Shown piece after piece: positions 3,157-24,815 of a DNA stretch of 25,832 nucleotides. The translations under genes were made by a program, and so were the position numbers. Position 1 is the first letter of the stretch. Every line of letters begins with the position of its first letter. This DNA is from a virus, in the IMG/VR virus record IMGVR_UViG_3300011115_000660, positions 1 to 25,832 of that record; one strand, written 5' to 3'. The notes below the pieces were generated by a model. That model saw nothing but the letters and a program-made list of their open reading frames with translations. It was not told where the DNA came from and did not search any database.

Positions 3157-3876
3157 CTAAGCTGCCCGCGTCCATGTCTCGCTGGTCGCGTTTTCGGTTG
3201 TCCAAGTTTCGCTCTGCGCCGCCTGTGGCGACCATGTGGCGCTGTCGGCGGTGCCCGCCGTCCAGCTCTCGGCTGTGGCACTCTGCGCCGTCCAGCTTTC
3301 CGCTTGTGGTGTCGTGCCTTCCCACTTCAGGGTGGCCTTGACCGATACTATAGCAGATGCGGCGGTACTCGCGCTAGTGGAGAAAATACGCTCCACCCGC
3401 GCCTCTGCCGCGCTCTGCGCGCTGGCGCTGGCGCTGTCGCTATAAACGGCCTCACCGCGCGCCGTGGCGGCGCTGGTGGCTGTGGCTGCCGCGCTGGGCT
3501 GCTGCACGCGCTGTGCGGCCCCTGTGGCCGCGCTGGTGGCTGTGGCTGCCGCGCTGGGCTGCTGCACGCGCTGTGCGGCCCCCGTGGCCGCGCTGGTGGC
3601 CGCTGCTGATGCGGCGGCGCTGATTAAGGTCACCACGGCCCCGCTGGCCACGCTGGTGGCCGTGGCCGTGGCTGCTGCCTGTCTTACGCGCTGGGCGGCT
3701 GACGTGGCGGCGCTGGCGGCTGCTGACGTCGCTGCGACCAGCCTGACGCGTTGGGCGGCTGATGTGGCGGCGCTGGCCGTGGCAGATGTGGCAGCGGCAT
3801 CGACAATCGTGCCGTCGAGGCCATACGCCTCGACGCCATATGCCGCTAAACCATACCCGCCACGATACGCCGCCAT
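3157..3876 (-). CDS. Ala/Thr/Ser-rich repeat fibre protein, 239 aa
   Basis: Three zones are visible. Residues 1-25 are Gly/Tyr-rich (RGGYGLAAYGVEAYGLDG). Residues 36-175 are seven tandem 20-residue repeats rich in Ala, Thr and Ser, most with a Q-R-V core. Residues 185-239 have a Trp at exactly every tenth position (185, 195, 205, 215, 225, 235), within the pattern [S/T]-W-[T/S]. The gene sits between two fibre/tail genes, so a trimeric fibre or fibre-connector on the virion is the likely role. No named domain is recognised. A spurious product is unlikely, because the amino-acid periods are exact, the gene fills the operon without gaps, and the differing base between the two most similar repeats is silent. 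Confidence 0.75.
   Translation of the reverse strand: MAAYRGGYGLAAYGVEAYGLDGTIVDAAATSATASAATSAAQRVRLVAATSAAASAATSAAQRVRQAAATATATSVASGAVVTLISAAASAAATSAATGAAQRVQQPSAAATATSAATGAAQRVQQPSAAATATSAATARGEAVYSDSASASAQSAAEARVERIFSTSASTAASAIVSVKATLKWEGTTPQAESWTAQSATAESWTAGTADSATWSPQAAQSETWTTENATSETWTRAA
3160..3324 (-). repeat. 10-residue Trp repeat (30-bp period)
   Basis: Six tryptophans fall exactly ten residues apart (W185 to W235 of the fibre). The last five lie in the context E-S-W-T, A-T-W-S or E-T-W-T. The DNA copies are diverged, so the protein period rather than the base sequence is conserved, as expected for a selected structural repeat. Confidence 0.85.
3352..3771 (-). repeat. seven tandem 60-bp units encoding 20-residue repeats
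   Basis: Seven units of 60 bp encode residues 36-175 of the repeat fibre. The most alike pair spans 3471-3590: two 60-bp units differing at one base (3523 versus 3583), a silent change in a Thr codon. The other units are diverged but keep the 20-residue register. This looks like recent duplication within an older array. Confidence 0.9.
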
Positions 3877-9410: not shown

Positions 9411-10820
9411 TCAGGCGATCCCCTTCAGGTTTCGCCGAATTGGTTTTGACCAGTTGAACGTGGGCGATCCGAGTGACGTGGCCGCGTCCCCCGCAAATGT
9501 CAGGAACACCGCATCGGCCTTGTCTGGTGACTTCAGCCCGCGCCGCCGCATATCGTCCTTGCCCTCGGCCTTCATCTTGCCCGTACTCGCAAAGCTGTAT
9601 CTGATCGATGTCAGCTCGGCAATCAGTTCAGGGTCGTCGGGCAGCCGCGACCCGCGCTGTTCCAGCCAGCCGCGAAAGCGGAAGATCAGCTCGGTGCGCA
9701 GGTTGTTGTACGTGTTGCCGAAGGCGGGGGCCTCGCTGACGTTGATCGAGCGCACGGGCAGGCTTAGCTCGCGCAGGCGGTCGTACACGCCAGACCCCAG
9801 TCCGATCACGTCCACCAGTATCTCGCTGGGCCGCTCGCTGGGCAGCATCCCGTCGTACTGCGCCTTGACGCGGCCTACGGTCTGCATCAGATCCAGCCCC
9901 CTCCACGTCTCCACCTCGGTGACGACAGACCCGTACCGTTTGCACAAGGCCGTGCGGTCGCTACCAAATCGCGCCACGTCCAGCCCCCAGATCGGCCGCG
10001 TGTTGGGCGTCATCTTCACGTCGCGCGTCTTTGCCGCCTCGGCCAAATGCAGGGGGATGATCGTGTCGTCGTCGCCCTGCGCAAACTCGCCCAGCACGCG
10101 GATGCGGTACGCGTTGCTGTCCTCGCCGTATCGCAGCTTCATTTCCTCGACAAAGGCCTCGCTCACGCGCGGACTGTCGATGCACGACCAGTGCAGCGTG
10201 TACCAGTGATCCGACAGGCGGTTGTGCGTCTCGAAAAACGTGCCGCTCGTCCGCGTCGGGTTGCCCGCCAATATCGTGATCGCGCTGTGGCCCGACATCG
10301 ACCCACTGGCCGCTTCAAACACCTGTTCGGGCACGCCGCTCGCCTCGTCCACGACCAGCAGGACGTGGTCGCTGTGGACGCCCGCCAGCGCCTCTGGCTG
10401 CTCGGCGCGGCTCGTGCGCGCCGAAATAAACGCCTCGCTCGGCGCGGCCACCAGCTCGACGCGGTCTGTCTTGACCTCAAACAAAACTTGCAGCGCCTCT
10501 GGCAGCTCGTTCAACCACCGCTTCATTTCGGCAAACAGCGCGTCATATAGCTGGGCCGTCGTCGGCGCGGTCACCACCACCTTGCAGGGGAAGCGGAACA
10601 AGACAAACCAGATCATGGCCCAGCTCAGCGTCGTGGATTTGCCCGTGCCGTGACCAGACCGCACGCTGATCTTGCGCTCGCCGCGCCCGACGGCCCGCAG
10701 CAAATCCTCTTGGTACGCTTCGGGCACGGCCCCCAAAATCTCGCGTACGAACAGGACAGGCCCGTTTTCGTCGGACGCGTACCGCTCGATCATGGCCACA
10801 AACGGGTTGTCGCTACTCAT
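9411..10820 (-). CDS. terL: terminase large subunit
   Basis: This 469-residue protein is the motor ATPase and nuclease that packs DNA into the procapsid. The ATPase half shows Walker A SGHGTGKS (55-62) and Walker B VLLVVDEASG (153-162). The nuclease half shows the three acidic sites of an RNase H-like fold: GLDVARFGSD (279-288, Asp281), LVDVIGLG (Asp337) and SPDKADAV (431-438, Asp436). The length is normal. It overlaps terS by 4 bases (ATGA). Unlike most phages, the next genes are not portal and capsid but an unassigned three-gene cassette. Confidence 0.96.
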   Translation of the reverse strand: MSSDNPFVAMIERYASDENGPVLFVREILGAVPEAYQEDLLRAVGRGERKISVRSGHGTGKSTTLSWAMIWFVLFRFPCKVVVTAPTTAQLYDALFAEMKRWLNELPEALQVLFEVKTDRVELVAAPSEAFISARTSRAEQPEALAGVHSDHVLLVVDEASGVPEQVFEAASGSMSGHSAITILAGNPTRTSGTFFETHNRLSDHWYTLHWSCIDSPRVSEAFVEEMKLRYGEDSNAYRIRVLGEFAQGDDDTIIPLHLAEAAKTRDVKMTPNTRPIWGLDVARFGSDRTALCKRYGSVVTEVETWRGLDLMQTVGRVKAQYDGMLPSERPSEILVDVIGLGSGVYDRLRELSLPVRSINVSEAPAFGNTYNNLRTELIFRFRGWLEQRGSRLPDDPELIAELTSIRYSFASTGKMKAEGKDDMRRRGLKSPDKADAVFLTFAGDAATSLGSPTFNWSKPIRRNLKGIA

Positions 10821-11293
10821 TCGGTGCTTTCCTCTGCGTCAATCGCCGTGCCCTCGATCACCACGCCCTTGCTGACCTTGCGCAGGGCGTCCAAGTGCAG
10901 GGCGTTGATATTCAACACCACCGTCGGGCCGTTCTTGTTCTGCTGGTATCGATCAGGGTGATTGACCGTCGCCAGCCACTTGCGCACATCGATGCGCTCC
11001 TTGGCGACGGCGATTTGCTCCTTGGTGATACCCTCGGCGTCTGCCAGCGCGTCGGCGATGCTCAGCGCCTCGTCGGCCAGCTTGTCGGCATTCTCGCGCC
11101 GCGCCTCGTCCAGCGCGGCCTTGTAATCGGGGTGCGCATTCAGGTGACGGCTCAAATAGGTGCGGCTGCACCCCAGCTCCTCGGCCAAGTCCAGCACCGT
11201 GCCCCCCTCGGCGATGTACTCTTGCAGGTATTCCGCGCCGCCGCGCGTCTCAATCTCTGCAAAGAGGCGCTTGCGTAACGCCTTGCCCGCCAT
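10817..11293 (-). CDS. terS: terminase small subunit-like DNA-binding protein
   Basis: The protein has 158 residues from the ATG at 11293, which has GGGGAG 8 bases upstream; a longer reading to 11500 has an implausible His/Pro/Arg-rich N-terminus. Residues 15-55 hold a helix-turn-helix (TVLDLAEELGCSRTYLSRHL), followed by a long helical oligomerisation region with RIDVRKWLATVNHPDRY, a segment typical of small terminase subunits of the Sf6-like type. It should recognise the packaging site and hand the DNA to TerL, with which it overlaps by 4 bases. The family call rests on motif and position, both good. Confidence 0.88.
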   Translation of the reverse strand: MAGKALRKRLFAEIETRGGAEYLQEYIAEGGTVLDLAEELGCSRTYLSRHLNAHPDYKAALDEARRENADKLADEALSIADALADAEGITKEQIAVAKERIDVRKWLATVNHPDRYQQNKNGPTVVLNINALHLDALRKVSKGVVIEGTAIDAEESTE

Positions 11294-11417: not shown

Positions 11418-11459
11418 CGGGGCGTATCTGTCAGATGCGCGTCGGGCTGCACATGCACG

Positions 11460-11489
11460 CCCCCGCCCTTAACCCCCCACGGGCGGGGG
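11460..11489. other. GC-rich hairpin between two promoter candidates
   Basis: CCCCCGCCC (11460-11468) pairs with GGGCGGGGG (11481-11489) around a 12-base loop. No T run follows on either strand, so it is not a standard terminator. On the minus strand it lies between the promoter candidate at 11518 and the terS promoter, where it could attenuate readthrough. Confidence 0.45.
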
Positions 11490-11517
11490 GCCTCTCGCAA
11501 ATCACCAGCAGCGCAAC

Positions 11518-11546
11518 ACCATAATCCGATAGACAGTATTATGCAA
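11518..11546 (-). promoter_or_regulatory. possible second upstream promoter of the late operon
   Basis: On the minus strand TTGCAT (11541-11546) and TATGGT (11518-11523) are 17 bases apart. The -10 is the same TATGGT as in the candidate before the post-terminase cassette, so the two may be read by the same polymerase form. Confidence 0.35.
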
Positions 11547-11748
11547 TGTGCAGCTTTGTGAATGTGATAGCGTTATCAATGACTTAGCTATTCGTGCTGC
11601 GTTACACGTTACCGACAGGGTATCACAGCCCAGTTGTCTATACTGTTTATGCACATAACCATACCGATTGTGCATTGACGCACAGCCAAAACCCTCGCAC
11701 GCGCGCGTGAGCGGCGGCGTGTCTCACAGAGAGGTTTGCGTGGTGCGT

Positions 11749-11818
11749 GGCACGATCCTGTCGGCACGTGGCGCGTGGCACGTGCGTCGCGGCACGTGCA
11801 TTGTGGCACGTGGCACGA
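11749..11818 (+). repeat. five direct 14-bp iterons (GGCACG core)
   Basis: GGCACG begins at 11749, 11763, 11777, 11791 and 11805, an exact 14-base period. The last four extend to GGCACGTG, whose CACGTG is a palindrome; the other six to eight bases of each unit vary. The array lies in the 1-kb gene-free region, about 100 bases before an A+T-rich stretch. A DNA-binding initiator or regulator site array is the likely function. Confidence 0.7.
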
Positions 11819-11926
11819 AGTAGGCGGGTCACGGCGCGCGCTGGGCTTACGGGTCTGGCAGGGGCATCTGGCGGGCGCACGCGACAGTCGCCGCAACACA
11901 TACGTAACATGCTAATTCCCTACGCT

Positions 11927-12012
11927 TCCTATATACAGATACAACACTATAATAGTACACCTATATATGTACCTTATATATCTTACATATAACTTGTAAG
12001 ATGTAGATGTTA
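11927..12012. other. A+T-rich segment, possible DNA-unwinding element
   Basis: By hand count 45 of the 60 bases from 11941 to 12000 are A or T, in a genome that is otherwise GC-rich. It includes TATAAT at 11948 and the inverted repeat CTTACA...TGTAAG near its end. Lying between the iterons and a second repeat family, it fits an origin melting region. No gene is seen in it. Confidence 0.5.
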
Positions 12013-12231
12013 CGGTTGTTTCGGTAGCCATTTAATAGCACGAAATCAACATGATAACCCCGTATCACGCACCGTAACACGCACAGTGTATAAGCGGCGA
12101 CTGCGTGATACGGTCATTACGGCAACGCATAGACATGATGCGCTTGCCTCGCCCCCGCCGTAACGCCTATTTCATCGCGTGCGGGGCGAATGTTACGCTG
12201 GGGAGAGCGTATGTTACGGCGTGTGATACGG
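12008..12231. repeat. family of CCGTA(A/T)CACGCA repeats, direct and inverted
   Basis: CCGTATCACGCA (12060-12071) is followed at once by CCGTAACACGCA (12072-12083). A perfect inverted copy, TGCGTGATACGG, lies at 12102-12113, and a shorter inverted copy, TGTGATACGG, at 12222-12231. Partial copies occur as TGTTACGG at 12008 and 12212, CCGTAACGCC at 12158 and TGTTACGCT at 12191. Such clusters are usual for initiator or repressor binding. Confidence 0.65.
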
Positions 12232-12239
12232 CAAACGAA

Positions 12240-12267
12240 ATGGCCGCGCAGCGATCTGCGCGGCCAT
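12240..12267 (-). terminator. intrinsic terminator of the minus-strand replication operon
   Basis: ATGGCCGCGCAG (12240-12251) and CTGCGCGGCCAT (12256-12267) form a perfect 12-bp stem with a 4-base loop. On the minus strand it is followed by TTTCGTTTG. It lies about 80 bases after the primase-helicase stop, in the right place to end that transcript and shield the origin-like region. Confidence 0.75.
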
Positions 12268-12347: not shown

Positions 12348-14843
12348 TCAAGGCACGCCGTGGATGCCGTGGTCGCGCATACCACGGTCGATGCGCGTGG
12401 CGATGTCATTGGCGTTGTTGGACCGCGCCAAGCTCGCCGCCCGCTCATCCCACGACATCAGCGCCCACTCATCCAACTTAGCGCCTGCAACTCTGTAATA
12501 CACCGTCTCGAACGTGCGCTTTGCGTCTGTGCCGCCCGTGATCTGCCGCGTCTGCATCCGCGCCCAGCCCATGCCGTTAGGCCGCTTCAGCACATCCTGC
12601 GCGCGGCCCCACCAGTTCTTGGTGCTGTCAATCTCACCCGCTGCCGTCAAGGCATTGGTTAAGCGGCGCTTCAGGGCCGTGTTGGTGATGAAGTCTGCGG
12701 GGATGTCGTCCAGCACCTCGGATAGGATGTGATCCAGATCACTTTCGTTACTGGCCCGCATCAGCGCACGGCCCTCGCCCAGGTCTGGCGCGATACGAAG
12801 GGCCGACGTGTCAACGGCCACGCCGTGCAGGTACTGGCACAGGCCCGCGCCGAACCATGGCACGTACCGCCCGCTGACGCGCAGTGGATTGATCAGCCGC
12901 ACCAGTTCGGGCACGTCATCAAACTTTAGATTGGGCTGCACCAATACCGCGATCCGACGGTCAGTCTCGTCCAATGGTAGGGCATTCATGTGGTTGGTGG
13001 CCATCAGGATCGACGCGAAAATCTCGGCAGAGTAATTGCTGAGGTTCTTGCGCCGTATCTCCATCACCCGCTGGCGTGGATCGACCAGTTGCTTCAGCCG
13101 CTCGTACACCTCTCGCCGCTTCCACGCCATTGCCCCGCCCGCGTCGTCGCCCGCCATAACTTCCTCGCACAGCACCAGCAGCGCGTTGGCGATCCAGTCG
13201 TTGTACTGGCCTTGACCCTGCCCACCCATCAGTTCGGTGCTGCTGATATTGCGCACATGCTTCTGGCCCAGCGCGGCGGTCATCATGTCAAACAGCGTGC
13301 CACGACCCGTGCCCTGTATCTCGGCCACCATGATCACGCCGCAGTTGGGCGTGGCAGGATACTGCACCTTGGACGCCAGCCACATGCGGAACCAATCCCG
13401 CGCGCCCTCGTGCGGCACAAGATGCGTTAGCAGCGCCTCGAAGGCCGCGCCTGCCGCAGCGATCTGGGCCGCATTGACCTCGACGTGCGCCGTCGGCCGA
13501 TAGGTGTTGATGTATTGCGCGCCGTCCTCGACATAGAGGCGCTGGCCTGCGAGGTCTGGGCGGAAGCGGTGGCCGCTGACATCTATGCGGCGCGGGTCGC
13601 TGGCCCACAGGGCCACGGGGTGAATGATCTGCGAGCCGCCGCGCGGGCCGCGCACCTCGACCGCGCTAGGCTGCATCAGCACGCGAAAATTGGCCATCGT
13701 CATGGACTGCGAGGCGTCCGCATCGATGGGCATGACGCACCGCTGCTCGCTGGCGCAGAATGCCACTTCGGCGATCAGGTGATCCACGACGCGCTCCATG
13801 TCGTCGCGCATGTCAATGCCCACCTGCGCCGTCTCGGCGACGGGCGCAGGCGCGGGCTTGTCGAACAAAGTGCTGTTGCCCGCCAGTGCTTCAAGGCGAT
13901 CCAGCGCGCCCGTGTTCAGCGGCTTTGGCATCAGGGCCACGGGGCGGTGTGTCTCGTATGACGCCGTCTCCAAGATCGCCACACGCCCGTCGTGCGGGTT
14001 AAGGTATGCGATGCAGCGCGTCGTGTTGGCCGCGCTGGGCCCTTCCAGCCACGATGCGGACAGGCGCACGCTGTTATAGGCGGCGACCGTTATGTCCAGC
14101 TCTGCCAGCGTGAGCGGCCCGTGGTCGCGCGTGTCAAACACCTGATCGTCCAGATCATAAATCACGCTGGGCGAGCTGAAGCCTTCCTTGGACTTGGCAT
14201 CATTGATCCAGCCCAGTTCGGCCAGCACGCGCGAGGCGGTGTCGGCCACGATGGCGAGCTGCGCGCGCGTCAGCTCTGGCAGCTCGCAAAACAACACGTC
14301 GGCCAGCCCCCGATTGTCCACCCAACGGTAGGCCACCTCGACTTCGTCATCGCGGCCAATGGTGTGCGCGCCATAGACGCCAAACTGCCGCCCTGTATCT
14401 CCCGCGAAAATCTCCACGCGGTGGACGGCATCATCGGGCGCGCTGTCGGGCTGCCGAAAGCCCGCCGATGTCAGACGGTAGAAGCTGCTCTCGCCCTCGG
14501 CCAGACGGCAGAACCAGCACTCCTTGGCCCCCTTGCCCAGCCGCACGGGCGCGCGTTCCAGCAGCTCCCAAATGTCGGCAGGCAGGGCGTCGATGATGGC
14601 GTTGATCGCAACGGCGTCGTTCACATCCAGATCGATGGCCACCAGCCCGTTCTCAATGCGCACGCCCGTCGCCCGCCACCTAAGCTGACCAGACCACGCA
14701 TTGATCTGCGCCTCGTCCACGGTCAAGTTCGGCCAATCCTTCAGGACGCACATCTTATCCTTGTTGGCCAGAGGCGTGTACCCATTGTACAGCATCTGGT
14801 GACGCAGTGCGGTCTGCGTCTGTGTTTCTGCCTTACGATCCAT
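12348..14843 (-). CDS. primase-helicase: primase-polymerase domain plus SF3-like (DUF5906) ATPase
   Basis: The protein has 831 residues from the ATG at 14843, which has GAGG upstream; a TTG at 14858 is less likely. The N-terminal third resembles a primase-polymerase domain: GLVAIDLDV gives the paired aspartates (about 71 and 73), and RVEIFAGDTGRQFGVYGAH gives the following basic strand. The C-terminal part fits DUF5906/SF3 helicases: VIMVAEIQGTGRGTLFDMM (Walker A, with Arg where Lys is usual, about residue 514), ALLVLCEEVM (Walker B), and ASILMATNHMNALPLDETDRR (sensor and arginine finger). It should make primers and unwind DNA at the phage fork. It is the last gene before the terminator and the origin-like region. 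Confidence 0.85.
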   Translation of the reverse strand: MDRKAETQTQTALRHQMLYNGYTPLANKDKMCVLKDWPNLTVDEAQINAWSGQLRWRATGVRIENGLVAIDLDVNDAVAINAIIDALPADIWELLERAPVRLGKGAKECWFCRLAEGESSFYRLTSAGFRQPDSAPDDAVHRVEIFAGDTGRQFGVYGAHTIGRDDEVEVAYRWVDNRGLADVLFCELPELTRAQLAIVADTASRVLAELGWINDAKSKEGFSSPSVIYDLDDQVFDTRDHGPLTLAELDITVAAYNSVRLSASWLEGPSAANTTRCIAYLNPHDGRVAILETASYETHRPVALMPKPLNTGALDRLEALAGNSTLFDKPAPAPVAETAQVGIDMRDDMERVVDHLIAEVAFCASEQRCVMPIDADASQSMTMANFRVLMQPSAVEVRGPRGGSQIIHPVALWASDPRRIDVSGHRFRPDLAGQRLYVEDGAQYINTYRPTAHVEVNAAQIAAAGAAFEALLTHLVPHEGARDWFRMWLASKVQYPATPNCGVIMVAEIQGTGRGTLFDMMTAALGQKHVRNISSTELMGGQGQGQYNDWIANALLVLCEEVMAGDDAGGAMAWKRREVYERLKQLVDPRQRVMEIRRKNLSNYSAEIFASILMATNHMNALPLDETDRRIAVLVQPNLKFDDVPELVRLINPLRVSGRYVPWFGAGLCQYLHGVAVDTSALRIAPDLGEGRALMRASNESDLDHILSEVLDDIPADFITNTALKRRLTNALTAAGEIDSTKNWWGRAQDVLKRPNGMGWARMQTRQITGGTDAKRTFETVYYRVAGAKLDEWALMSWDERAASLARSNNANDIATRIDRGMRDHGIHGVP

Positions 14844-14858
14844 GATCACATCCCTCAA

Positions 14859-16262
14859 TCAATCAATTGTCTTGGTGTAATAGAAGCTCTCACTGGCTTC
14901 GCACGATATGGGCAGCCCCGTGGCCCAATCGGGAAGCTCCAACATAGCACGCTCCAATGCCGCGCGGCCATCCGCTACATCTGGCATCGGGCACAGGCCG
15001 ATGATCTCGTCGTGCGTGTGGCCCACCACCAGTTGTGGGTGCGAGAGCGACAGGCGCAAGAGGGCGTTCTTCAGCAGCGCGCCCGCGACGGCCTGCACGG
15101 CATTCTCCACCAGCGTGCCGTACCACAGGGCCGCGCGACCATAGCCGCGCCGATAGGTAAGCTGCTCGCGCACCTCGACCTTGCCCGTCAGCTTGTCCTT
15201 GCGCTCGCGCATTTCCCAGCGCAGCATCGGGTACAGCAGCGGCTCGCCGTTGGGCAGCAGGCACGCCAGCGTGCCGTGCATATAGTCGGGCAGGTACACA
15301 TAGTGCAGGTGGTTACCGACGGGGCGCAGTTGGTTGTGGTGGTGCATACACCAGATCACCGCTTCCCAAGTGTCATCCCAGTATCGGCGCGCCCACGGGT
15401 TTGTCGCCCGCCACTTTTCCACCACGTCAGCCGCTTCGTCGTCGCTGAATGACGCGCCATAATTGCGCGCCATCGCAAACAGCGCGCCCTTGCCACCGCC
15501 AAAGCCCAGCGACAGCACGGGAACCTTGCCGTGGCTCTGGCGCTCGGCCTTGGTCACGTCCTTTGGCTCCTTATTCAGGATCGACCCCGCCTGTCGCTTG
15601 TAAATGTCGGGCAGCGACGGGTCTGCATCATTCTGCCTGAATATATCTAGCACTGGATCAGCGCCGAAGGCGTCGCCCAGCCACGGCAGCACGCGCGCCT
15701 CAATGGCACTGTAATCGGCCCAGATCATCTTGTACCCATCGGGCGCGACAAAGACAGGACGGATTAGGCGCGATAGGGTGCGGCCCACGGGGCCGTATTC
15801 TTTCAACGTGTCATAAGACGCGCCATCCATGATCTGGTCAATGACGGCCAGCTCTTTAGCCTGATCGCCCACCGTGGCGCGTGCAAGGTTATGGATTTGC
15901 AAACCGCGCGACGAAAACCGCCCCGTCGCCGCTGCGCCATAGTACACATATTGGCCGCGCAGGCGGTCACCGCGCGACACCATCGGCAACAGCTTGACAA
16001 ACTTCTTGGGCGTGGCCGACGCGCCATAGGCGCGGACGTGCAGCACCTGCAACACGGTCGTCTCGTCGTTTGTCAAAGCGCGCTCGTCGGCGACCCGCTC
16101 CAAATAGGCGATCAAGTCCTCGACGCGGCTGCGCTCTAACGAATATGTTTCAAGCCTTGTAACACCGTCGCCTTCCTCGTCCTGCTCCTCGACCACCTCG
16201 CGCAGCAGGATCGCCACCGCCTCGGCCATATGACCAAGGCGCGCGACCACCCAATCGCACAA
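14859..16262 (-). CDS. family A DNA polymerase, C-terminal polymerase part (frameshifted from the upstream gene)
   Basis: This part carries the polymerase core: YGAAATGRFSSRGLQIHNL, motif A (MIWADYSAIEARVLPW), the K...LSLGFGGGKGAL...YG segment of motif B, and motif C (VVGHTHDEIIG). It has no credible start: the first in-frame start codon is a TTG at 16262 with no ribosome site, and the next is an ATG at 16229. The upstream frame loses homology exactly here and continues into an Arg/Trp/Cys-rich tail. The two parts together make one normal exonuclease-polymerase. Either one base is missing (indel or assembly error) or the ribosome shifts by -1. It replicates the phage genome with the primase-helicase downstream. 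Confidence 0.9.
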   Translation of the reverse strand: MCDWVVARLGHMAEAVAILLREVVEEQDEEGDGVTRLETYSLERSRVEDLIAYLERVADERALTNDETTVLQVLHVRAYGASATPKKFVKLLPMVSRGDRLRGQYVYYGAAATGRFSSRGLQIHNLARATVGDQAKELAVIDQIMDGASYDTLKEYGPVGRTLSRLIRPVFVAPDGYKMIWADYSAIEARVLPWLGDAFGADPVLDIFRQNDADPSLPDIYKRQAGSILNKEPKDVTKAERQSHGKVPVLSLGFGGGKGALFAMARNYGASFSDDEAADVVEKWRATNPWARRYWDDTWEAVIWCMHHHNQLRPVGNHLHYVYLPDYMHGTLACLLPNGEPLLYPMLRWEMRERKDKLTGKVEVREQLTYRRGYGRAALWYGTLVENAVQAVAGALLKNALLRLSLSHPQLVVGHTHDEIIGLCPMPDVADGRAALERAMLELPDWATGLPISCEASESFYYTKTID

Positions 16263-17014
16263 GGGACGTGCTGGTTGACCGTCCTGATCGCGCCGCCCGT
16301 CAGGCGGTGGATGTCATAGTCGGCACGCTCGGCATTCTCAATCGCCAGCGCGCCCGCCGCGCGGGCAAATTCCACGTCCACGGGCATTCCCGTGTCGTTG
16401 ATCTGCTCGCTGGCCCAATACTGTTGCCACGCCAGATCAGACAGCGGCAGGGTGGCCTGCCAGACGGTGCGCAGGGGCGGGATGTCATCCAGCGCATACA
16501 GCGTAAATGCGTTCCACTCGGCAGGATGCTCGGCAGGGTCAGCAAAAGGCGGCACGCAGAATTTCTGGATCAGGCGCTTGCCGTCGGGCCGCTTCTGAAT
16601 TTCGGCGCGCACGACCCTGCCCGCGCTGGCCAGATCAGGCGGCAAATGCGAGCGCACGGCCTGCACCATCGCATCCTTGAAATGTTCGGGCTTGGCATTG
16701 CTGTACCCCAGAATGCCGCGCGACAGGGCGAGGCGGTCAAAGCCCGCATTCCACGCCACAAAGTGCGCCTCGCCCATTTCGACACGCTCCAGAAACTCCA
16801 ACAGGTCAGTGGGCGCGTCGTTCCAATCGAGCCACTCACCCAGATGCGCGCGATCCTGCTTCCAAATTTTCACGGGCCCGTCGCCGATGGCATAGGTCAC
16901 GATCATCACCCGAAAGGCAGGGTCTGCACTGTACGGGTACACGCCCGTCGCCTTCAGATCAGCGCCCGACAGCGTCTCGGTGTCGATAAAGCAGAGGTTG
17001 TCGATATTTTCCAT
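16136..17014 (-). CDS. family A DNA polymerase, N-terminal 3'-5' exonuclease part (frame ends early)
   Basis: The ATG at 17014 overlaps the stop of the preceding gene by one base. Counting from the TTG three bases upstream, exonuclease site I is FIDTET (Asp12, Glu14), site II is FVAWNAGFDRL (Asn90, Asp94) and site III is YALDD (174-178). The polymerase lead-in QINDTGMPVDVEFA and LTGGAIRTVNQHV follows. After NQHVP the frame becomes Arg/Trp/Cys-rich, ending in TVLQGLKHIR; these last 40 or so residues look out of frame. The coding sense resumes in the -1 frame as LCDWVVARLG, giving a joint of H-V-P-L-C-D-W. Proofreading activity is expected if the two parts are made as one chain. Confidence 0.88.
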   Translation of the reverse strand: MENIDNLCFIDTETLSGADLKATGVYPYSADPAFRVMIVTYAIGDGPVKIWKQDRAHLGEWLDWNDAPTDLLEFLERVEMGEAHFVAWNAGFDRLALSRGILGYSNAKPEHFKDAMVQAVRSHLPPDLASAGRVVRAEIQKRPDGKRLIQKFCVPPFADPAEHPAEWNAFTLYALDDIPPLRTVWQATLPLSDLAWQQYWASEQINDTGMPVDVEFARAAGALAIENAERADYDIHRLTGGAIRTVNQHVPCAIGWSRALVIWPRRWRSCCARWSRSRTRKATVLQGLKHIR

Positions 17015-17307
17015 CAACGCACCGCCTGATCAATTTTGCTTTCGGCCTCGATGACACGATGTTCCACCTCGTCCGCAAAAGCGATTGATACAGCCATGCA
17101 CGCATCGCAATCGCACAAATCAGCAAAGTGCGCGACGGTTGATGCTAAACCCATCGCCGCGCCGACCATAACGGCAGGCGGCAGTTTGTGCTTTGTTGCC
17201 CACGCCGCGAGTTGATCGTTTAGGCTGTCCATGACGGCATAAAAATCAACCCACGCCTCGCCCGTGACCACCGCCAGCACCTTTTTTTCTTCGCTATGTT
17301 CGCTCAT
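17014..17307 (-). CDS. unknown small protein of the replication operon, 97 aa
   Basis: I do not recognise this protein. It is mostly helical in appearance, with LPPAVMVGAAMGLASTVAHF (about 42-61) as a small-residue helix followed by a cysteine cluster, LCDCDACMAV (three Cys). It overlaps the nuclease gene upstream by 14 bases and shares one base with the polymerase gene downstream, so it is made together with both. A polymerase or nuclease accessory role is possible from position alone. Confidence 0.6.
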   Translation of the reverse strand: MSEHSEEKKVLAVVTGEAWVDFYAVMDSLNDQLAAWATKHKLPPAVMVGAAMGLASTVAHFADLCDCDACMAVSIAFADEVEHRVIEAESKIDQAVR

Positions 17308-23918: not shown

Positions 23919-24232
23919 TAAAGGCGAAATACCAGCTTGTGGCCAAGATGCTGTGTGATGGGTACAGCCGCAGGGTCATCGCGCAGCGCCTCGGTATGAA
24001 CGTTAATGGCGTCAACAGTTGCATCGCATACGCCCGCTCGATTGGCGTGGCGGCGCGGTTTGACAGGGAGCGCATCTTGCTGGCCAGCGCGCCGCCGCAC
24101 ATCGAAAAGTGGCTGCGCGCGCAGGCTCCCGACGGGGCCACGGCGGGGGACGTGATCCTCGCCATCCTGAATGACGTTTACAATGAGGATATGGAAAACA
24201 ACTGCCCCACGGGGCAAAAAGAGGAGGCCTAA
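23915..24232 (+). CDS. small helix-turn-helix protein, 105 aa
   Basis: LVAKMLCDGYSRRVIAQRLG followed by MNVNGVNSCIAYARSIGV reads as a helix-turn-helix of the sigma-region-4/LuxR kind: a scaffold helix, a turn at the Gly, and a recognition helix. The C-terminal half (PHIEKWLRAQAPDGATAGDV) is helical. The ATG at 23915 overlaps the previous stop (ATGA); a longer reading from 23792 is out of keeping with the upstream gene. It may regulate phage or host transcription. Confidence 0.65.
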   Translation: MIKAKYQLVAKMLCDGYSRRVIAQRLGMNVNGVNSCIAYARSIGVAARFDRERILLASAPPHIEKWLRAQAPDGATAGDVILAILNDVYNEDMENNCPTGQKEEA

Positions 24233-24233
24233 A

Positions 24234-24815
24234 ATGGATTTATATGTCAATCACACAAACCCTGACGGTTCAAGGGGCGGACAGGTTCACAGGCGCGCAA
24301 CCATCTATGAGGGCGCAACCATCTATGCGGGCGCAATCATCCATGAGGGCGCAACCATCTATGCGGGCGCAATCATCCATGAGGGCGCAACCATCTATGC
24401 GGGCGCAACCATCTATGCGGGCGCAACCATCTATGAGGGCGCAACCATCGGTGTGCGCGCAACCATCTATGAGGGCGCAACCATCGATGTGCGCGCAACC
24501 ATCTATGAGGGCGCAATCATCTATGAGGGCGCAATCATCGGTGCGCGCGCAACCATCTATGCGGGCGCATTCTGGCGAAATTTTGGTCCGATAGGGTCGC
24601 GCAATGCCAAGCTATTTGTCTGCGAGCAAGAATCGGAGCTTCTTTGGTGGACAGGTTGTATGTGCGCCAAGCGAACCGATGAATTTTTGGCTAGGATTAA
24701 AGAAACACACGGCAACAACCATTACGCGCAATCATATCGCGCTGCTATTGAGTTTATCACGGGCGAATACAACCGCCATAAAGCGCAGAAAGAGGAGGCC
24801 CAAAGTGGGCAATGA
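24234..24815 (+). CDS. left-handed beta-helix hexapeptide-repeat protein, 193 aa
   Basis: After a 21-residue start (MDLYVNHTNPDG...HRR), residues 22-111 are fifteen perfect-length hexapeptides of the type A-[T/I]-I-[Y/H/G/D]-x-[G/R]. The Ile at every sixth place with a small residue two places before it is the rule for left-handed parallel beta helices, about five coils here. The C-terminal domain (FVCEQESELLWWTGCMCAKR, then EFLARIKETHGNNHY) resembles the conserved tail I recall in unnamed phage proteins with such repeats. No catalytic His of hexapeptide acyltransferases is visible, so a scaffold or decoy role is more likely than an enzyme. GAGGAGG lies 6 bases before the ATG. Confidence 0.75.
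   Translation: MDLYVNHTNPDGSRGGQVHRRATIYEGATIYAGAIIHEGATIYAGAIIHEGATIYAGATIYAGATIYEGATIGVRATIYEGATIDVRATIYEGAIIYEGAIIGARATIYAGAFWRNFGPIGSRNAKLFVCEQESELLWWTGCMCAKRTDEFLARIKETHGNNHYAQSYRAAIEFITGEYNRHKAQKEEAQSGQ
24297..24566 (+). repeat. fifteen tandem 18-bp repeats
   Basis: The unit GCAACCATCTATGAGGGC recurs without length change fifteen times, with variation mostly in the last nine bases of the unit (TATGAG, TATGCG, CATGAG, GGTGTG, GATGTG). The period keeps the reading frame, so copies can be gained or lost without breaking the gene. A second frame also stays open across the array as a by-product. Confidence 0.95.

Follow-up and report, generated by a model that had tools for sequence, protein, structure and literature searches.

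Where does this phage begin to copy its DNA, and which of the repeats crowded into one intergenic gap belong to that start? We examined a 25,832-base virus record (IMG/VR record IMGVR_UViG_3300011115_000660), a bacteriophage fragment whose whole length we call the window. An earlier note, made from the letters of this DNA, had proposed that a tandem GGCACG array and a nearby A+T-rich stretch are the iterons and melting region of a theta-type origin. The best explanation of our results is that this note found the right place for the origin and chose the wrong repeats, with the array being a separate, terminase-side feature. An origin beside the primase-helicase gene was supported, and its iterons would belong to another repeat family, that of TGTTACGG.

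The minus strand encodes, in order, a family-A DNA polymerase, a DUF5906 primase-helicase, a small terminase, a large terminase, and the virion proteins; plus-strand genes begin near 17.8 kb. The array and the A+T-rich stretch both lie in a gap of ~1 kb between the primase stop and the start of the small terminase gene. The primase-helicase gene, which the earlier note had placed next door, is indeed the right-hand neighbor of this gap. The left-hand neighbor, the small terminase gene with its conserved non-coding leader, had been missed, as had the TGTTACGG-like repeats. A terminator scan returned no terminators, and Rfam and tRNA searches gave no match in the gap region. The features of this locus are as follows:

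9411-10820, minus strand: large terminase subunit (TerL)
10817-11293, minus strand: small terminase subunit (TerS; HTH, Sf6_terminase family, by Pfam)
11458-11492, minus strand: conserved C/G-rich hairpin with a conserved GGGGTTAAGG strand (from conservation and folding)
11514-11593, minus strand: conserved leader elements, GCTAAGTCATTGATA and a CATAAT-N-ATTATCGG-like dyad (from conservation)
11694-11738, minus strand: conserved GC-rich element AAACCTCTCTGTGAGACACGCCGCCGCTCACGCGCGCGTGCGAG, given in the terminase reading direction; candidate cleavage or recognition site (mean identity 0.78, 16 lineages)
11742-11819, no strand assigned: 7/14-base tandem array (GGCACG), on the terminase side and proposed to belong to a packaging region
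11891-11909, minus strand: left inner iteron pair, CCGCAACA at 11891-11898 and ACGTAACA at 11902-11909 (plus-strand letters; from repeat finding)
11913-12005, no strand assigned: candidate melting region, A+T-rich and enclosed by the inverted iteron pairs (from an A+T scan; A+T-rich at the same place in relatives)
12008-12024, plus strand: right inner iteron pair, TGTTACGG at 12008-12015 and TGTTTCGG at 12017-12024, with 9-base spacing
12060-12231, both strands: outer cluster of iterons from this family, each with no more than one mismatch, at 12060 (-), 12072 (-), 12106 (+), 12158 (-), 12191 (+), 12212 (+), and 12224 (+)
12240-12267, minus strand: perfect hairpin with a 12-base stem, terminator-like without a T run, just 3' of the primase gene (z -5.55)
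12348-14858, minus strand: NrS-1-like primase-helicase (DUF5906; SF3/D5-type helicase core; Pfam PF19263, E 1.1e-15, and Foldseek)

Probable iterons beside the primase-helicase gene

The A+T content of 0.75 over 11941-12000 agreed with the hand count of the earlier note, and the segment 11913-12005 includes the most A+T-rich 60-base stretch of the window: across all 25.8 kb, the top 60-base windows (0.77) begin at 11940-11949. Repeat finding showed a second family in the gap, whose TGTTACGG/TGATACGG words flank the A+T-rich stretch on either side and occur in both orientations. The family has 11 sites with at most one mismatch between 11891 and 12231, and exact TGTTACGG occurs three times in the window, each time within the candidate origin region. 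The inner pairs (11891/11902 and 12008/12017) are oppositely oriented with the A+T-rich stretch between them, directly 3' of the primase gene. Each copy in the left pair differs from TGTTACGG, read on the minus strand, by one base, and the pair aligns with two full copies in the relative L003. Judging from the sequence, a replication origin in this intergenic region is likely, and its extent is best set at 11891-12231, inverted TGTTACGG-type pairs included.

GC skew, which the earlier note had suggested as a check, gave no sign change at the candidate in the window or in three long relatives (G006 and G019 among them). Its turn or minimum lay ~5-6 kb away (5.9 kb in the window), at the gene-strand switch. 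Because the minimum follows this switch, the skew is uninformative on the origin.

The same plan recurred among relatives of the primase. All 10 exact TGTTACGG copies of L003 and all seven of L005 were in the same gap, and the remainder of either contig had none. Among lineages that share the terminase family, nine have the order primase, iterons with A+T-rich stretch, array, conserved element, terminase; a tenth (L088) showed the iterons, array, and element, and its primase presumably lies beyond the contig end. Inverted pairs around an A+T-rich stretch 3' of the primase were found in the close relatives L003, L005, L007, L008, L071-L074, and L088. L075-L078, at ~32-34% identity and with other terminases, likewise have inverted pairs that bracket an A+T-rich stretch shortly 3' of the primase stop, each with an iteron word of its own. 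L079 (30% identity) has G-rich repeats that are less clear. The words of the relatives, one per lineage, were TGTTACGG, GTGTTGAG, GTGTTGTG, TGAGTACCA, TGGGATGG, TGTTGCA, and GTAGGTACG, and the cyanophage isolates Mel-JY33 and Nsp-JY18 carry GACCCGGGT repeats 3' of the primase. The iteron geometry thus seems to travel with the primase, while the word differs per lineage.

We also scanned for the geometry in a strict form: two inverted tandem pairs of 8-mers with a pair spacing of 8-11, an inner distance of 40-160, and at least 50% A+T between them. With up to five mismatches, matches were found in 9 of 24 loci. In each of the nine, the best matches fell 3' of the primase stop, at a distance of 70-720 nt. 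Block-resampled sequence usually gave no match, and its best scores had at least six mismatches. Among the nine were two distant phages examined only after the pattern had been noticed: Bordetella phage BPP-1, with TTGCCTCGT twice, ~70 nt, and ACGAGGCAA twice, and Xanthomonas phage AhaSv, whose match is also 3' of the primase. The strict scan gave no match in the window, L005, L007, L072, L073, L075, L079, L080, or L069, nor in six of seven further annotated phages with distant primases. The window failed where L003 passed because its left inner pair is degenerate. Since several distant phages lack a match, the plan is common rather than universal.

The earlier note had seen no obvious dedicated initiator and looked to a new or small DNA-binding protein. 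The initiator is probably the primase-helicase itself, which belongs to a class (P4 alpha, SaPI Rep, and pRN1 ORF904) that binds its own origin. The best Foldseek match in the PDB was the C-terminal region of NrS-1 polymerase (6k9c, E 2.6e-17), with further matches to poxvirus D5/E5 and to SaPI5 helicases. The SaPI Rep and SCCmec Cch2 proteins initiate replication just 3' of their own genes (PMC7581432), as do pRN1 ORF904 and, by proposal, BIP-1 (PMC4234260). The assignment follows from these fold matches, from the gene neighborhood, and from the functional relatives that start replication 3' of their own gene. The C terminus, encoded at ~12492-12740, was modeled, with moderate confidence, as a winged-helix-like domain (AF2 topology H-S-H-H-S-S, residues 701-783, pLDDT ~60-86); searched as a separate fold, it gave weak PDB matches (E 0.06-0.1).

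The array and the terminase-side leader

The five GGCACG units of the earlier note are real and beyond chance. They start at 11749, 11763, 11777, 11791, and 11805, in exact 14-base steps, and we add a sixth copy at 11812, 7 bases after the fifth. The longest chain of GGCACG at 14-base spacing had five members, against at most two in shuffled sequence, and a 7-base sub-period appeared at lags 7, 14, 21, and 28, each exceeding all 1000 dinucleotide shuffles. At least four exact 6-mers at a fixed spacing occurred elsewhere in the window only in a coding 18-base array, at 24295. The GGCACG array lies ~95 bp from the A+T-rich stretch and ~450-530 bp from TerS, beyond the conserved GC-rich element.

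Conservation of the 14-base period in relatives, another check proposed earlier, was not found: in the same intergenic region the period was 7, 11, 13, or 14, and the repeat unit was likewise not conserved. A GGT/GTGCC-type core nonetheless recurred in many arrays. An array at the same position is present in all 10 lineages in which a primase-type origin neighbors TerS, and the strongest arrays were all in primase-bearing lineages. No array-like repeats were found beside distant primases that have other terminases. A weaker, 11-base array (GGTATGGTGAT) occupies the same place in a TerS clade with another replication module, being significant in L090, L101, L102, and L103 and not in L089 or L098. 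The TerS relatives L091, L093, L105, L106, L020, L113, L116, and L132 have the conserved element and no array.

The TerL relatives L030-L048 were considered as carriers of the same array and dropped as a test, because their 14/28-base array is flanked by a terminase-like gene upstream and by a recombinase gene, and its homology is not clear. In L033, L039, and L040, an upstream terminase-small-subunit-like gene is separated from the TerL gene by a serine-recombinase-like gene, which has the 14/28-base array (GCCTCGCATAACGG type) just upstream of it.

In the window, the array directly abuts the GC-rich element (minus strand AAACCTCTCTGTGAGACACGCCGCC...), which is part of a conserved non-coding leader before TerS with a mean identity of 0.78-0.87 in several bins (16 lineages). 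A promoter-like TTGCCC-17-TATACT lies just before TerS, at 11354-11326. The element is kept in TerS relatives with another replication module, such as L103, which has an unrelated AAA_25 helicase. No primase homologue was detected in these element-bearing relatives by a search that was positive in three controls. L103 has its own AGGTGAGG repeat cluster between genes at 2540-2690, ~0.9 kb from its 11-base array, and this cluster is likely a different origin. In L005, L091, L096, and L106, ~290-780 bases are inserted between the GC-rich element and the TerS gene, so that the element is shifted from TerS and stays with the upstream side.

The ends of the complete relative G006 fall inside its array, as a repeat-length overlap that assembly can produce. 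Contig ends were rejected as evidence of cos, the ends being scattered and the G006 overlap typical of assembly. The Myoviridae-like MW202879 was rejected as an annotated anchor, having no comparable leader.

Competing readings of the two signals

The sequence directly shows the repeats, how they are arranged, and that the two signals are inherited differently; from this we infer protein binding, melting, a replication start, and use by the terminase. We consider it likely that the gap holds two separate, adjoining signals, an origin at 11891-12231 and a packaging region at 11694-11819. At the origin, the primase-helicase from the adjacent gene would bind the TGTTACGG-type iterons, and the contact would probably be made by its C-terminal winged helix. 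With ~95 bp of A+T-rich DNA between them, the two oppositely oriented iteron pairs could place helicase rings on either side, which would then melt the A+T segment and allow priming there. In front of the small terminase gene, the 14-base array and GC-rich element would be where the terminase recognizes or cuts concatemers.

The part of the array itself in this scheme is open to more than one reading. We rank packaging first, neutral slippage next, and an origin role last, and membership of a cos/pac packaging region has a slightly better than even chance of being correct. The packaging role is less certain because several relatives retain the element without any array. Together with the strongest arrays being in primase lineages, this makes an accessory role at the origin or neutral slippage possible. 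That the array is a slippage-prone tandem repeat, a neutral spacer between the origin and the terminase leader, is unlikely overall, though by no means negligible: unit turnover between relatives is almost complete beside conserved neighbors, and several TerS relatives do without an array, but its position is the same in all 10 primase-type lineages, the 11-base form appears in the clade with the other module, and the GGT/GTGCC-type core keeps returning. In a bolder reading, which we hold doubtful, the array would be a terminase docking site recognized from its location and repeat rhythm, not from its sequence. The repeat unit would turn over freely beside the invariant GC-rich element, just as the origin would keep its geometry while the iteron word swaps by lineage with the primase-helicase.

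The proposal that the GGCACG array itself forms the iterons of a theta origin, with a separate initiator and 11941-12000 as melting region, now seems quite improbable. Its short distance from the A+T-rich stretch would fit, as would its presence in every lineage that combines the primase-type origin with TerS and its strength in the primase-bearing ones. However, neither unit nor period is conserved, related primases with other terminases have their own iterons and no array, and the 11-base array persists with an unrelated replication module whose AGGTGAGG repeats are elsewhere. We would also give a low probability to the idea that the TGTTACGG sites are repressor or activator operators and that the A+T-rich stretch is a promoter of the late (terminase) operon. 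In its favor, inverted pairs are operator-like, the minus-strand terminase operon lies downstream of the region, and there is the promoter-like sequence just before TerS. Against it, no sigma-70-like site was found within the A+T-rich stretch. Moreover, the geometry stays with the primase gene where another operon lies downstream, and in BPP-1 and AhaSv it is again 3' of the primase.

Known systems and other features of the window

The plan of the candidate origin resembles those of P4, SaPI, and pRN1 origins. In SaPI origins, two iteron sets flank an A+T-rich stretch. As in SaPI and SCCmec Cch2, the candidate is directly downstream of the helicase gene, and the SaPI5 primase-helicase was among the Foldseek matches. 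Those origins have multiple short iterons recognized by the helicase C-terminal domain, perhaps as two hexamers (PMC7581432). By contrast, the protein here joins an NrS-1-like primase to the helicase and is encoded by lytic-type phage genomes that have a family-A polymerase; the iteron words are unrelated and different in each lineage. P4 alpha combines primase, helicase, and C-terminal winged helix in one protein that binds origin repeats (as described in PMC4234260), but its primase is of the bacterial TOPRIM type and its iteron sequence differs. P4 also has a second region, crr.

For pRN1 and Bordetella phage BIP-1 (primase, SF3, and winged helix), the origin is 3' of the replication gene and contains a large stem-loop whose sequence is not conserved. 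That study found no iterons, proposed stem-loop recognition, and referred to "not yet identified sequence motifs" 3' of the gene (PMC4234260), whereas the conserved feature here is the inverted tandem iterons, which BPP-1 shows directly as pairs. As single-stranded DNA, our inverted pairs could form a stem around an A+T loop, and this may be the stem-loop emphasized in the pRN1 work. NrS-1, the closest solved structure (6k9c), differs in that its 8-nt recognition sequence is reported to occur twice, in the middle of the genome (PMC7102993), and not as an iteron cluster beside the gene.

On the packaging side, the array is like SPP1/SF6 pac and lambda-type cos in consisting of direct repeats in non-coding DNA just before the TerS gene. 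It differs in lying ~450-530 bp from TerS, past the GC-rich element. The boxA pac repeats of SPP1 are replaced by different repeats in SF6, and packaging works alike (PMC4737164).

These comparisons suggest an origin mark for NrS-1-like/pRN1-like primase-helicases that can be tested: an A+T-rich stretch bracketed by two inverted tandem pairs of a word of 8-9 bases, which differs from lineage to lineage. They would supply initiator-origin pairs for many phages and, for uncultured ones, a simple way to annotate origins.

Elsewhere in the window, the family-A DNA polymerase (14859-17017) is present as two overlapping minus-strand frames. It is a single frame in L071-L074 and Mel-JY33, and an error in the sequence near 16.26 kb, or a frameshift there, probably explains the split. 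The virion genes include a predicted Ala/Ser/Thr-rich protein at 3157-3876 with 60-base repeats at 3431-3666. The coding 18-base array (24171-24815, 15 copies) specifies beta-helix-like hexapeptide repeats of the GATIYE/GAIIHE kind, in a protein that matches phrog_7964.
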